A DNA stretch of 64,000 bases from an uncultured SAR86 cluster bacterium. GTDB lineage: Bacteria; Pseudomonadota; Gammaproteobacteria; Magnimaribacterales; D2472. Position 1 is the first letter of the stretch. The number at the start of each line of letters is the position of its first letter. The notes beneath the pieces are model-generated. The model saw nothing but the letters and a program-made list of their open reading frames with translations, was not told the DNA's origin and made no database searches. The position numbers were made by a program, and so were the translations under genes. The stretch spans positions 785,334 to 849,333 of the forward strand of contig CAJIYN010000001.1 of assembly GCA_905181645.1 (NCBI GenBank). The letters are read 5' to 3'. Positions 1 to 5,454 of this stretch are shown piece by piece.

Positions 1-2
1 AT

Positions 3-1444
3 CAAATTAGAGCTGTCGATAATCACATCGATAGGGCTGAGGTCAGCGAAGCATTAAAAAATGGTTCAGGGTGGGTTTCTAGGTATAGCGATACTCTAAA
101 ACAGGACTTATTATATTTTGCCGTAAAAGATGGAAATCTCAGTAACCCAAATATTATTAGAATTTCTGTTCCTCTTAATTATCTGGAAAGTGCTGCAGCT
201 ACTCTTCAAGTTTCTGTTATTTTGCTCTTTGTTGTTGTTTTTATGCCATCCAGATCCGTCTACAGAAAAGTGTATACTAGGAATTCCTAAGATGTTAGCC
301 AAGGCTGCTACCAATATAGCTGAGGGAGATTATAAGAAAAGAGACATAAGAGCTCTTCCAACTCAAAGAGTTGATGAATTTGGCACTGTAGCCAGATCAA
401 TTTCTCAAATATCTGAAGATCTAAAGAGTCAGATTAAAATGATTGCAAAACAGCGTGATCAATTTGGTCAAGTAGGAACTAACATACCTGATAACGGCAC
501 ATACCGACAAGGTGATATTGTCTATAATACAAATGCAGTTGCTTAATACTCAGGATTTAGATAAGCAGAATATAAGTTCATTAAATTTACCTGCAATTAA
601 TTACTTATTTAATAGAGTTACAAATAAGAAGAGAGCAGACATAGAATTTGAAATTGAATTACAAGATAAATCTACTCGATGGGTTCTAGGTTCAATGAAT
701 CAATCAAAAACAACAGGTGAATATATATTAGTAGTTCATGACATAACTCAATTAAGACAATTAAATTCCATGAGAAGAGATTTTATTTCAAATTTATCTC
801 ATGAGTTAAGAACTCCTGTAAGCGTTATCAGGGCAAATTCAGAAACTTTGCTTGATGGTGCGCTTGATAATAAGAAGGAAGCAAAAACATTTGCCAGAGC
901 AATATTGCATAATTCTGAAAGGCTTTCCTCAATGGTCAGTGATTTAATCGATCTGTCTAGAATTGAATATGGAGATCTTAAATTAAATATAAAAGGAATT
1001 GATTTTAATGATTTTATGGAATCCTTTTTAGTATCTATGAAAAGTGTTGCAAAGAAGAGAGACATTGAACTCAAATACAATCCTGATCACCAGGGTTTAT
1101 TAAGTGCAGATACTCAGGCTTTAGAAAGAATTATGAATAATCTACTTGATAATGCATATAAATATTCTGATGAGGGCACCTTGGTAGAAGTTTCTACAAA
1201 AGATCAAGGCAAGATGATTAAAGTTATGGTTGCTGACTCGGGTGTTGGAGTGTCAGATGAAGATCAGGAGCATATCTTTGATAGATTCTATAGAACAGCT
1301 TCTGCAAGAGCCTCTGATAAGCAGGGCAGTGGATTAGGTCTTGCAATTGTTAAAAACCTTACAAATAGCTTAAATGGCGAAGTTGGTGTTGAGTCTAAAC
1401 ACGATTCTGGTTCGATCTTTTGGTTCACTATTCCGATTGGTTAA
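3..1444 (+). CDS. phoR: Phosphate sensor histidine kinase PhoR (5' end outside window, frameshifted)
   Basis: Inner-membrane kinase that phosphorylates PhoB under phosphate limitation. Reading the frames in turn gives the end of a sensor domain, a membrane segment (about 200-245), a HAMP-like linker containing GDYKKRD (about 325-350), a damaged PAS region, the H-box SNLSHELRTPV (about 790-825), the N-box NNLLDNAYKYS (about 1135-1170), and the ATP-lid motifs DSGVGV and GSGLGLAIV. Frame changes lie near 270-290 and 480-545, so only the catalytic half (from about 545) reads cleanly. The start is outside the window and phoB would be expected upstream. A Pho box follows the gene, which fits this assignment. 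The family is certain from the kinase motifs, and PhoR rather than another HisKA kinase is likely. Confidence 0.85.
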
Positions 1445-1482
1445 CTTCTCCTTTCTTTACTTAGTCACCTATTTGTATTAAT

Positions 1483-1500
1483 ATGTCACACATCTGTAAC
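1483..1500 (+). promoter_or_regulatory. Candidate Pho box
   Basis: Two 7-base direct repeats, ATGTCAC (1483-1489) and CTGTAAC (1494-1500), are separated by the 4 bases ACAT. This is the spacing of a PhoB site (CTGTCAT-n4-CTGTCAT). A weak -10-like TATACG lies at 1513-1518, placing the second repeat near the -35 position as in PhoB-activated promoters. It sits 40 bases after phoR and points to the short unit that ends at 1717. Confidence 0.55.
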
Positions 1501-1527
1501 AAAGAAGTTACATATACGTAATAAAAA

Positions 1528-1717
1528 GGTCAGATCATGATAAATCATTTTAAAATTATTTTGGAGTAAATTTCACTTTATAATGAAATCTGGCCGTTTG
1601 CATAAGATAGTCAAAATATCAGGTATTCGTTAATCCTATTTAACTAAATTTATTTGAAATTAAATTGAAATTAAATAAGATTTTTAAAAAATGAGCTACA
1701 CTATGTAGCTCTTTTTT
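1528..1717 (+). ncRNA. Candidate Pho-regulated small RNA or very short mRNA
   Basis: No convincing gene is present between the Pho box and gspC. The stretch has a long-range stem, GGTCAGAT (1528-1535) with ATCTGGCC (1588-1595, one G-U pair), enclosing an ATGAT/ATCAT hairpin (1537-1548), and ends in a strong intrinsic terminator. The only ORFs are of 10 and 16 codons (ATG at 1537 and 1583). Whether the unit makes an sRNA, a leader or a tiny peptide cannot be told from sequence. It could also be a leftover of a lost pst gene. Confidence 0.3.
1690..1717 (+). terminator. Rho-independent terminator
   Basis: Perfect 8-bp stem GAGCTACA (1693-1700) / TGTAGCTC (1704-1711) with a 3-base loop, followed by six T and preceded by an A run. 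It ends the short unit downstream of phoR just before gspC. Confidence 0.85.
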
Positions 1718-1720
1718 ATT

Positions 1721-2114
1721 ATGAATACTAAACAAGTTAAAAAATTAATTAATGCCTTTGTAGCAATCTTGCTGCTTGCATTACTTACAATGCTAACCTT
1801 TAAGTTTTATTAATAAGCCTAATATTCAAGACATAAGATTTACTAATCTCGATAAGATAAAAAGCAATAATGTAAATAACTCAAATCAAGAGTTTAAAGT
1901 TACAGATAATGCTGATTTTAGTTATGTAGTAGTTGGTTATAGATTTGGTGATGTTAATTCTTCAGTAATACTAAAAAAAGGTAATAAGGAATTTGTTTTA
2001 TATGAAGGTGATATTTTGGAAAACACTTATGAGCTTACCAGCATTAGTCCAGATGAAATTATATTTAAAGGATCAGGTAAACTATATAAACTAGAAAACA
2101 AGGTTGGGAAATAA
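1721..2114 (+). CDS. gspC: Type II secretion protein GspC (short form, one frameshift)
   Basis: Inner-membrane link between the assembly platform and the secretin. The ATG at 1721 starts a short cytoplasmic tail (MNTKQVKKL) and one membrane helix to about 1810. A frameshift near 1800-1818 leads into a periplasmic homology region (VGYRFGDVNSSVILKKG, YEGDILEN, about 1920-2060), which binds the GspD N0 domain. At about 130 residues it lacks the C-terminal PDZ domain of longer GspC proteins. The stop is 3 bases before gspD. Identity rests on topology, homology-region pattern and position as first gsp gene. Confidence 0.75.
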
Positions 2115-2117
2115 AAA

Positions 2118-3966
2118 ATGATTAAAATTCTAAAATTATTATTTTGTATATCATTAATTAGCATTTCTACGTCAGCACTTTCTCAGGATGCTTTTGTATT
2201 AAATTATGAAGACGCAGACATTAAAAAAGTTTCACAAGATATTGCTAGATTTGCAAAAAAGACAATTATTCTTGATCCAAGAGTTAAAGGTAAAATAACA
2301 ATTTACTCTAATGCTAGCTTAAATAGCGAACAAGTTTGGGATGTATACCTAAGAACTATTCAAGTAAATGGCTTTAGCTCTATTTCAGATAACGGTGTAG
2401 TTAGGATTGTTCCTGAAAATGAAGCAACTAGAGATGAAAATGATATTAATAATGAAAATGGAAACTTTTTAACAGCTGTTATTCCTCTAGTTAATAGATC
2501 TGCAGGAGAAATCCTAACTCAAATCAAACCTATAACAGGAAGGCAGTCGCATCTTTCTAGCATTCCATCTATCAATTCAATTTTGTTGGTAGATAAAAAA
2601 TCAAATATTAAATAGGATTAAAGCGCTTGTTGATGATTTAGATAAAAACAATTCAGCAAATATTTCAATAATTAAACTCGATAATCTATCATCTACAGAA
2701 GCCGTAAGAATTCTAGATAAACTTAAAGCTCAAAATAATCCAACTATTAATAACTTTGTAGCCATCCCATTTAGTCCATCAAACTCTGTAATATTATCTG
2801 CAAACTCAACTATTACATCTAATATAGAAAAAACACTCGTTTCTCTCGATGCTGATGTTAAAGCAGACAAATCAATTGATGTTGTATATCTAAAATATGC
2901 CAAAGCAGAAGAGCTTTCTACTATTCTTAATAGTGTCTCTGATCGATTTGCTGCAAGCCCCGATGGTATCAAGACAGTTATTACTTATCATGAAAAAACA
3001 AATTCTCTTATTGTTTCATCTGAAGAATCAAATTTACCAGGAATTAGAAATCTTATTTCTAAGCTAGATATAAGAAGGGCACAAGTTTTGGTAGAGGCAA
3101 TAATTGTTGAATTATCTGAAACAGCAGCTCAAAATCTTGGTGTTGAGACTTTATATACAGGTGGTGGCGATGTTCCAATTGGTGCAACTTCATACGATGT
3201 TGGATCTGGGCCTAACCTGCTTGCAATTGCAGGATCAGCAGCTTCAGATGGAACTGATGCTACCTTGGGTCAGCTTGCTACATCATCTCTCTTAGCTTCG
3301 CAGGGTTTAGTTGCAGGTTTTGGAGATTTTACTGGCGCTGGTAACTTTGCGGGTATCTTGAGTGCAGTTGCTAACGATCAAAACTCTAATATTCTATCCA
3401 CCCCTTCAGTAATAGCAATGGATAATACGCTATCGAAGCTTTTGGTTGGTCAAGAAATTCCTATTACTACTGGTGAGAGCCTAGGTTCAAGTAATGTAAA
3501 TGCATTTAGAACAACCTCAAGAGAGGAAGTTGGCATTAAATTGGAAGTAACTCCTCAAATTAATGAAGGTAGCTCGGTAATTCTTACCATTAAACAAGAA
3601 GTTTCAAGTGTTGCAGGAACTTATGCAAGTGGAGTAGATTTAATTACTAACAATAGAACTATCGAAACAACAGTCTTGGCTGATAACGGTCAAATCATAG
3701 TCCTAGGTGGTCTCATTGATGAGGATATTCAAGAAAATATATCCAAGGTGCCTATTCTAGGATCAATCCCGTTGATTGGAAAATTATTTCAATCCTCTTC
3801 AAGTCAGGTTATAAAGAAAAAATTATTTGTTTTTATAAGACCAACAATTCTTATAGATTCAGATTCAATAAATGAATTATCGGCTGAAAAATATAACTTT
3901 ATTAAAGCAGAGCAACTTTCAAGAGAGTCAGAGATAAATTTAATTGATCTAACTAAATCTAATTAA
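2118..3966 (+). CDS. gspD: Type II secretion secretin GspD (one frameshift)
   Basis: Outer-membrane channel of the T2SS, about 615 residues after correction. It has a cleavable signal peptide (MIKILKLLFCISLISISTSA, then LSQ) and an N0 domain starting FVLNYEDADIKKVSQDIA, followed by N1-N3 modules up to KLDIRRAQVLVEAIIVE. The secretin core includes the gate region (SNILSTPSVIAMDN), the C-terminal signature VPILGSIPLIGKLF and KKLFVFIRPTIL. A single-base frameshift at about 2610 splits N0/N1 from the rest. No pilotin-dependent C-terminal extension is obvious. It lies between gspC and gspE in canonical order. Confidence 0.93.
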
Positions 3967-3972
3967 ATATAT

Positions 3973-5454
3973 ATGGAAGATTTAGCTGTAAAAGATATAG
4001 ATACTATCTCTAATATACTTCCTTATGATTATGTTCGAGATAGAATGATTTATTAAATGAAGATAATCAGTGTAATGTTTACTCTCCAAATATTATAAAT
4101 ATTAAAACATATCAAGAATTATCAAGGTTTTTAAATAAGCCATTTGTAGTTAAAAAATGCTCAGCTGAAGACTTTAATGAAATGCTCACTAAATCTTTTG
4201 GCTCCAAAGACTCCTCCGATATGTTATCTGAAGAACTGTCTGATGACTTTGACCTTGAATCTTTTGCAGGAAACATAGCGCCAACTGAAGATTTGTTGAA
4301 TGGAAATAATGATGCACCAATTATTAAATTAATTAATGGAATCATAAGTCAGGCAATAAAACAAAGAGCTTCCGATATTCACTTTGAGCCATACGAAGAT
4401 CAACTAATTATTAGATTTAGAGTTGATGGAATTCTAAAAGAAGTTCTATCTCAGGATAGCAGGATAGCGTCTTTAGTTATTGCCAAGAATAAAGATTATT
4501 TCTAGACTTGATATATCTGAAAGAAGATTACCTCAAGATGGAAGAGTGTCTCTTTCTCTCGGTGATAAGAGTGTTGATGTCAGAGTATCTACATTGCCAT
4601 CTTCATCACAATTCACAACTACAACTTTCATCCCAACCATTTGAGCACTTGGACTTCCAAAACAAATACTTCATAATTATAAAAAGTCTTTAAAAAATCC
4701 TGAGGGTATTATTTTATTTACCGGTCCCACTGGCTCAGGAAAAACAACAACACTTTATGCTGGATTAAGATATCTGAGTGACTCTTCTCAAAATATTTTG
4801 ACTGTAGAAGATCCTATTGAATATACCCTTGGAGGTATAGGCCAGACACAGGTAAACACTAAGACAGGGTATACATTTGCAAAAGGGCTTAGGGCTATAC
4901 TTAGACAGGATCCCGATGTAATGATGGTAGGAGAGATCAGAGATATTGAGACTGCGCAGATTGCTATTCAATCAAGTTTAACTGGTCACTTGGTTCTTTC
5001 AACAGTTCATACAAATAGTGCTGTAGGAGCAATTACCAGGTTAAGAGATATGGGAATTGAGTCATTCTTGCTTTCATCTAGTTTAAGATCAATCATTTCA
5101 CAAAGATTAGTAAGAAGGTTATGTAACTCTTGTAAGAATGAAACTAATCCTTCAGAAGAGGCTGTTAGATTATTTAATTTAAATAATAATTCAAAAGTAT
5201 TTACATCAAATGGTTGTGACGAATGCTCATACTCAGGTTTTCAGGGAAGAATTGCTATTGCAGAATGTATTCAAGTAGATCAGACAACAAGAGATTTGAT
5301 TCATCAAAAGGCTTCTGAAAGTCAAATTATCGATCATGTCTTTAAAGATCATCCTTCAATAGATGATGCTAGCAGAGAGCTTATTATTCAAGGCATTACA
5401 TCCTGTGAAGAGATAATGAGACTCAATAATCTTAAAGAAGATGCCAGCTTATAG
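3973..5454 (+). CDS. gspE: Type II secretion ATPase GspE (frameshifts and foreign patch)
   Basis: Cytoplasmic ATPase that powers pseudopilus assembly. The N-terminal part from the ATG at 3973 binds GspL. The core has a SDIHFEP box (about 4370), Walker [14 protein letters not shown] (about 4725-4763), an Asp-rich [10 protein letters not shown] segment, Walker [13 protein letters not shown] (about 4910-4945), the His box (LVLSTVHTN) and a tetracysteine zinc site (CNSC and CDEC, about 5125-5230). Frames change near 4055 and 4490. The stretch at 4597-4646, where VRVSTLPS should run on through the arginine-rich segment, is replaced by unrelated DNA (see the gcvP fragment) with a stop at 4642. It overlaps gspF by 14 bases. 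Confidence 0.9.
4597..4646 (-). pseudogene. Fragment of glycine dehydrogenase (gcvP) inside gspE
   Basis: On the minus strand these 50 bases read [17 protein letters not shown] without a stop. That matches the conserved GcvP segment normally written SAQMxGMKVVVVxCDExGN. It replaces about 20 codons of gspE rather than simply interrupting it. It has no start and cannot be a gene. Confidence 0.65.

Follow-up and report, generated by a model that had tools for sequence, protein, structure and literature searches.

Small regulators of PhoR and phage-borne Pho genes

Small basic proteins are known to act on the phosphate sensor kinase PhoR: DUF1127 proteins have been shown to bind PhoR and to limit the uptake of phosphate in Agrobacterium and Escherichia coli (PMC12501420). 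Phosphate control also extends to viruses: some phage genes, such as cyanophage pstS, stand under host PhoB and so react when the host is under phosphate stress (PMC10976474, and works cited there). No phage of SAR86 had been isolated as of 2017; among uncultured viruses carrying an A-type iron-sulphur carrier, one was predicted from an IscU tree to infect SAR86 (PMC5332604).

The locus considered here lies in a stretch of SAR86 DNA of 64,000 nucleotides, analysed whole (the window), and its product, a microprotein encoded after phoR, resembles each of these systems in part. DUF1127 or YjiS-like proteins (PF06568) are likewise tiny and basic, often below 50 aa; the microprotein differs from them in being itself under a Pho box and in being present in phages. 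It shows no profile or pairwise match to DUF1127 (hhalign with YjiS, probability 0.1%), and membership is ruled out by Pfam, by the YjiS comparison and by the lack of any DUF1127 protein in 101 genomes of the SAR86 order. In its way of working it may still resemble a DUF1127 protein. Some of its phage copies carry host-type Pho boxes as other phage-borne Pho genes do; cyanophage Pho genes differ in their box (PyTTAAPyPyT/A) and encode longer proteins, and the microprotein is absent from the seven marine Kyanoviridae records tested. The proposed role, modulation of PhoR, recalls PhoU, but PhoU exceeds 200 aa (profile of 212 positions) and is undetected in SAR86, and the microprotein is not its homologue. 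Phage PhoH (PF02562), a phosphate-starvation-associated protein common in marine phages, is unrelated and occurs as a neighbour of the gene.

PhoB-like regulators were found in 60 of 61 genomes of the SAR86 order, PhoB-PhoR being nearly universal there, PstB above the cut-off in four of the 61, and PhoU in none (13 of 14 controls detected). Since PhoU is undetected in these 61 genomes, the PhoR-PhoB pair appears to run without the usual PhoU brake. As in Bacillus subtilis, a PhoR of the sCache type may be able to do without PhoU.

The locus and its assembly

The source genome measures 1.33 Mb in 3 contigs, with a completeness of 59.8%. The window begins within phoR, whose named relatives are SAR86 records; in the close relative G001 (contig matching CAJJAC010000005.1, SAR86B; L064), phoB lies just 5' of phoR. 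The encoded PhoR is a kinase of 586 aa. Two genes frame the interval of interest:

1..1444, + strand: 3' part of phoR, for a sensor kinase (sCache-HAMP-PAS-HisKA-HATPase); in the assembly the frame is interrupted at about 245 and at 494-541
1721..2114, + strand: gspC-like gene, frameshifted at about 1799, marking the conserved phoR-gspC interval

The name gspC is based on position before gspD and on size, the gene having no Pfam match. Relative to G001 the window is a mosaic, in which long stretches of 100% identity are interrupted by patches of 42-80%, and against G001 the frame is broken in phoR (245, 494-541) and in gspD (2613). Positions 1300-1550 form one divergent patch, in which phoR ends, the Pho box lies and the microprotein gene starts. 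Throughout positions 1-4000, blocks of 100% identity alternate with divergent or unrelated patches relative to G001, and the patch at about 465-541 resembles a foreign fragment (VGTNIPDNGTYRQGDIVYNTN). Other findings from the window that are based on frameshifts deserve caution.

A Pho box behind phoR

The PhoB-type site originally predicted just after phoR is confirmed, as a triple rather than a single pair of repeats:

1484..1513, + strand: Pho box, three direct repeats (TGTCACACATC / TGTAACAAAGA / AGTTACAT) with an 11-bp period

A 30-bp matrix built from 18 orthologous sites in relatives, window excluded, gives the site at 1484 a score of 26.4, by far the best in the 64 kb; among unrelated positions of both strands the maximum is -3.1. 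The box is conserved in 18 of 18 relatives, in every case 22-32 nt 5' of the microprotein ORF, and the locus holds at least two lineage-type 11-bp direct repeats 5' of a start codon, the mark of a Pho-regulon member. Two genomes of SAR86 family f3 (G041 and G059) support the identification of the motif as a Pho box: in them the repeats lie 5' of the porin gene and of aquaporin-arsC-pstSCAB, the pst cluster. The half-site TGTNACA is almost palindromic and the boxes are readable on both strands; in the SAR86 pst cluster, a reverse-read Pho box also lies 5' of a forward gene.

A conserved microprotein gene

Directly 3' of phoR, close SAR86 relatives encode a basic microprotein of 28-29 aa. The layout after phoR is a Pho box, 22-32 nt, ATG or GTG, 27-29 codons and a stop, and is seen in the genus of the window (G001, G002, G004) and in genera g6 and g5; an intact ORF with Pho box and Shine-Dalgarno sequence directly after phoR occurs in genera g1, g5 and g6. 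Representative sequences are MIKLFWSKFHFIMKSGRLHKIVKISGIR (G001), MVKSIWKKFHSFMKSGRLNKVIKISGIN (G028) and MARSIWNKFHSLMKSGRLTKVIRVSGLN (G075). They share the motif W-x-x-F-H-x-[FIL]-M-K-[SA]-G-R-[LI]-x-K-[VI], in which W, H, M, K, G and R are strictly conserved among SAR86 copies.

Purifying selection acts on the codons: pS is 0.68 and pN 0.15 over 15 distinct codon sequences, mean dN/dS is about 0.19 for unsaturated pairs, and of 22 codons, 20 show variation at the third position but five at the second. Codon-level selection thus goes together with a conserved ribosome-binding site, as expected of a protein-coding gene. That the slot next to phoR holds a microprotein gene with a Pho box can be stated with high confidence.

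The gene occurs in 24 of 203 genomes of the order, all of one family and distributed over three SAR86 genera, patchily within SAR86; a weak match in G179 in this search was taken as chance. No convincing cellular copy outside SAR86 was found in 369 genomes drawn from the class, where two weak matches within long ORFs were likewise taken as chance, nor any further cellular copy in a draw of 398 genomes from the phylum whose share of Alphaproteobacteria is not established. Pfam gave no match for 24 members beyond one chance match, and profile searches of Pfam, NCBIfam, PHROGs and PDB found no such family apart from chance matches; no description was found in the open-access literature. The net charge of the peptide is +3 to +10. 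Amphipathicity is modest, with helical-moment shuffle p values of 0.08-0.42 for SAR86 peptides and 0.01-0.05 for two phage peptides.

A second form of the microprotein (MSILKTQWSRFHEFMKSGRIHKVWNSMAR) stands at another locus in four g5 genomes (L110-L113), after PhoB-like repeats. Its gene is divergent from a neighbour that, read by eye, resembles a photolyase gene.

The broken frame in the window

The original prediction found no ORF longer than 16 codons here. This holds for the window itself; relatives, by contrast, have an intact ORF of 28-29 codons. The corresponding features are as follows:

1526..1529, + strand: ribosome-binding site AAGG of the microprotein gene; GGAG here in most relatives
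1537..1633, + strand: microprotein gene, ATG at 1537-1539, stop at 1631-1633
1583..1633, + strand: 16-codon ORF MKSGRLHKIVKISGIR, encoding the C-terminal half of the microprotein; G001 has the identical half

After the start codon, the frame is destroyed by about 10 extra bases that lie at roughly 1544-1556. The conserved frame resumes at 1547-1630 (..LKLFWSKFHFIMKSGRLHKIVKISGIR), which an HMM matches with an E value of 2e-14. The extra bases lie where the divergent patch rejoins G001-like sequence (ATGATAAATCATTTTAAAATTATTTTGG in the window vs ATGATAAAATTATTTTGG). Given the mosaic make-up of the window in comparison with its closest relative, the simplest reading is that the break is probably an assembly junction, a real frameshift being the less probable alternative. 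The absence of the gene in the window is an artefact of the window sequence. In G003, the N-terminal half of the microprotein is likewise degenerate and the C-terminal half conserved.

The suggestion that the 16-codon ORF might be a leader peptide thus picked the right codons but not their nature, as these codons specify the C-terminal half of a protein of 28 aa.

Stem, terminator and missing pst genes

The interval had been proposed to encode a phosphate-starvation sRNA with a long stem. The 8-bp stem exists in the window (1528-1535 with 1588-1595, GGTCAGAT / ATCTGGCC, one G-U pair) but is not conserved: at the same offset, only two to five of the eight bases pair in ten relatives. An sRNA with a conserved stem is thereby ruled out. 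The 3' arm of the stem is the coding sequence for K-S-G. The fold z-score of 1511-1717 is -2.5 and comes largely from the terminator and the window-specific stem, and no Rfam family matches in the window. Both marks of a non-coding sRNA, a conserved or covarying structure and the lack of a conserved ORF, are missing, and the sRNA proposal does not stand against a conserved, codon-selected ORF without a conserved stem. The sequence evidence does uphold a short transcription unit behind a PhoB-type box directly after phoR. The terminator seen earlier is also present, as a terminator-like hairpin with a T-run:

1693..1717, + strand: terminator-like hairpin GAGCTACACTATGTAGCTC and T-run, before gspC; hairpin itself 1693-1711

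This hairpin is missing from most other genera. Its left arm AGCTACACT is kept 5' of gspC in other genera, also where the sequence is unable to fold into a hairpin, and because of this conservation the hairpin region (window 1688-1720) may overlap a possible gspC promoter at AGCTACACT.

A further possibility raised at the outset was that a pst gene had been lost here by misassembly. Misassembly is likely, but it struck the microprotein; the absence of pst is evolutionary, since close relatives of the window also lack pst at this place. In family f3 (L270, L271), the phoR-gspC interval contains ppk2, a porin gene, an aquaporin-like gene, arsC and pstSCAB, with strong Pho boxes. The interval seems to accommodate Pho genes, with a content that differs from lineage to lineage.

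Copies in marine phages

A search of IMG/VR with the SAR86 profile yielded 474 pattern stretches, of which 259 were confirmed, so that about 259 marine viral contigs, mostly T4-like, carry the gene; in the control with reversed sequences, none of 60 pattern stretches was confirmed. Viral copies far outnumber cellular ones, and the closest phage forms are near-identical to SAR86 over the core (SIWKKFHSLMKSGRLNKVVKK vs SIWKKFHSFMKSGRLNKVIKI). H, M, K, G and R are invariant in the viral set, partly as a consequence of the search pattern. Each of the 17 larger viral contigs tested carries exactly one copy. In INPHARED, tblastn of the short peptide gave no match, a method insensitive at such length; a profile search was therefore applied to seven marine phage records (Synechococcus and Prochlorococcus phages, Pelagibacter phage HTVC008M, and phage C48C1, for which the record gives no host), and no copy was found.

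The gene stands in several phage contexts: after regA and before hsp20/gp43, after phoH, after uvsX, beside regA in divergent orientation and with a membrane anchor, and in a terminase-bearing phage unlike the others. Four contigs share one context in which the preceding gene, where tested, is phoH. With RegA, HSP20, UvsX, PhoH and terminase as neighbours, the homologues lie in genuine phage genomes, as befits a phage auxiliary gene. The anchored form consists of a hydrophobic helix followed by SIWKKFHSLMKSGRLNKVVKK; its predicted structure has a helix at 3-23 and helices at 32-41 and 44-52 (pLDDT 72). A late-promoter-like TATAAATAC lies 5' of several phage copies.

A Pho box lies within 220 nt upstream of 20 of the 78 testable phage copies, many of them near-duplicates and thus not 20 independent events. 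Scores reach 32, compared with 5 for the 99th percentile of 2158 control stretches. Most phage copies, those adjacent to regA, have no Pho box, so phosphate is not the sole context of the gene in phages. Pho boxes that read backward may serve the divergent gene instead.

The shared operon, the shared Pho-box sequence and the absence from the tested cyanophages and HTVC008M lead us to infer that the phage hosts are SAR86-like. Phages of the anchored type also carry a gene for an A-type iron-sulphur carrier, a trait they have in common with the uncultured viruses of PMC5332604.

A shared operon with an RNA leader and a secreted protein

SAR86 G003 and several phages share an operon made up of a Pho box, a structured leader, a secreted protein and the microprotein. 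Of 14 contigs found by the leader pattern, 13 show Pho-box-like repeats followed by the conserved leader of about 65 nt; next comes either the microprotein or a secreted protein of about 94 aa, after which contigs of sufficient length show the microprotein. Between G003 and the phages, leaders are identical at 69-75 of about 81 positions and the secreted proteins are 64% identical.

The structured leader separates the Pho box from the start codon and is about 65 nt long; it lies at L063:4788-4869 in G003 and is carried by viral contigs L244, L246, L248, L250, L251, L257 and others. It shows three covarying pairs, 98.9% of cells paired and an AGUA/GAA loop-E-like motif; none of 500 shuffles reached as good a covariation score, which is based on six distinct sequences only. 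Rfam gave no match for it in the scanned loci L063 and L200, and a new RNA family is possible.

The secreted protein family (about 94-110 aa, with a signal peptide and a C-terminal GF.TC.F) is common to SAR86 and phages. Members stand under Pho-box-like repeats (L244:6672-6953, L063:4873-5154, L230, L260-L268), and the two tested have no Pfam match.

Proposed mechanism and alternatives

The explanation we favour, at somewhat less than even confidence, is a PhoB-activated peptide close to the membrane, which adjusts PhoR or the state of phosphate starvation and which phages use as well. The lineage has PhoB-PhoR and lacks detectable PhoU. Under phosphate limitation, PhoR would phosphorylate PhoB, and PhoB~P would bind the triple 11-bp box. 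A short mRNA would then be made, with its end at gspC or 5' of it. The conserved S-G probably divides the peptide into two short helices. The peptide would act at the cytoplasmic face of the membrane, as the anchored phage form suggests, and would most likely tune either PhoR, as feedback, or some other membrane-bound component of the response to phosphate starvation; negative feedback as the direction of the effect is a guess. Marine phages, probably of SAR86-like hosts, carry the peptide by itself, joined to a membrane anchor or within a Pho-box operon, and would use it to steer that target in the host. The position next to phoR and the PhoR-binding precedent of DUF1127 proteins make PhoR the likeliest partner, yet adjacency is not proof of interaction, and we hold PhoR as the target only tentatively, with the balance leaning against it. 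The observations beneath this explanation are a conserved coding gene, its Pho box, synteny, phage homologues with Pho boxes and no detectable PhoU.

The main rival is primarily a phage takeover peptide, aimed at some general target in the host, whether at the membrane, the ribosome or RNA polymerase, of which the SAR86 copies would be domesticated genes used against phages or during starvation. The excess of viral over cellular copies, the regA, uvsX and phoH contexts together with the dissimilar terminase-bearing phage, the late-promoter-like TATAAATAC and the lack of convincing cellular copies outside SAR86 in the 369 class and 398 phylum genomes all speak for it; the SAR86 copy is, however, fixed after phoR in three genera, with a Pho box and under purifying selection, and Pho boxes accompany a quarter of the tested phage copies as well, which makes this reading rather unlikely. 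Distinctly less probable is a peptide that acts on membranes and helps the cell surface adapt when phosphate is short, as in lipid remodelling, with no role in PhoR signalling. Its positive charge, the membrane-anchored phage variant and the pairing with a secreted protein in phages and G003 are consistent with such a peptide, but it would leave the phoR adjacency unexplained, and the strictness of W, H, M, K, G and R in SAR86 copies suggests a specific binding surface.

Two further readings concern the transcript itself, and both are very improbable. A leader peptide or attenuator, whose translation would decide on transcription into gspC or on read-through of the hairpin, would fit the succession of small ORF and terminator-like hairpin seen in the genus of the window. 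Against it, the amino-acid sequence itself is conserved, the hairpin is missing in most other genera, and the ORF, which stands alone elsewhere, phages included, is the last operon gene in SAR86 G003 and several phages. Slightly less probable still is a phosphate-starvation sRNA, possibly of dual function with the microprotein: a short Pho-box unit with hairpins and a negative fold z-score would suit it, but conservation follows the codons rather than the stem and Rfam has no match.

Significance for SAR86 and its phages

SAR86 bacteria are among the most abundant uncultured bacteria of the surface ocean. The favoured explanation in its strongest form, a new microprotein family shared by virus and host that directly modulates the Pho two-component system, with a feedback element in PhoU-less SAR86 and phage mimics under the host Pho box, sometimes behind a covarying RNA leader, that govern the phosphate response of the infected host, is speculative and on balance doubtful. 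Genes so small escape standard annotation, and this family has no entry in Pfam, NCBIfam or PHROGs. The microprotein offers a sequence handle by which SAR86-type phages can be recognised, and a Pho-box microprotein beside phoR is a concrete candidate for the regulation that is missing in bacteria without detectable PhoU and usually without Pst.
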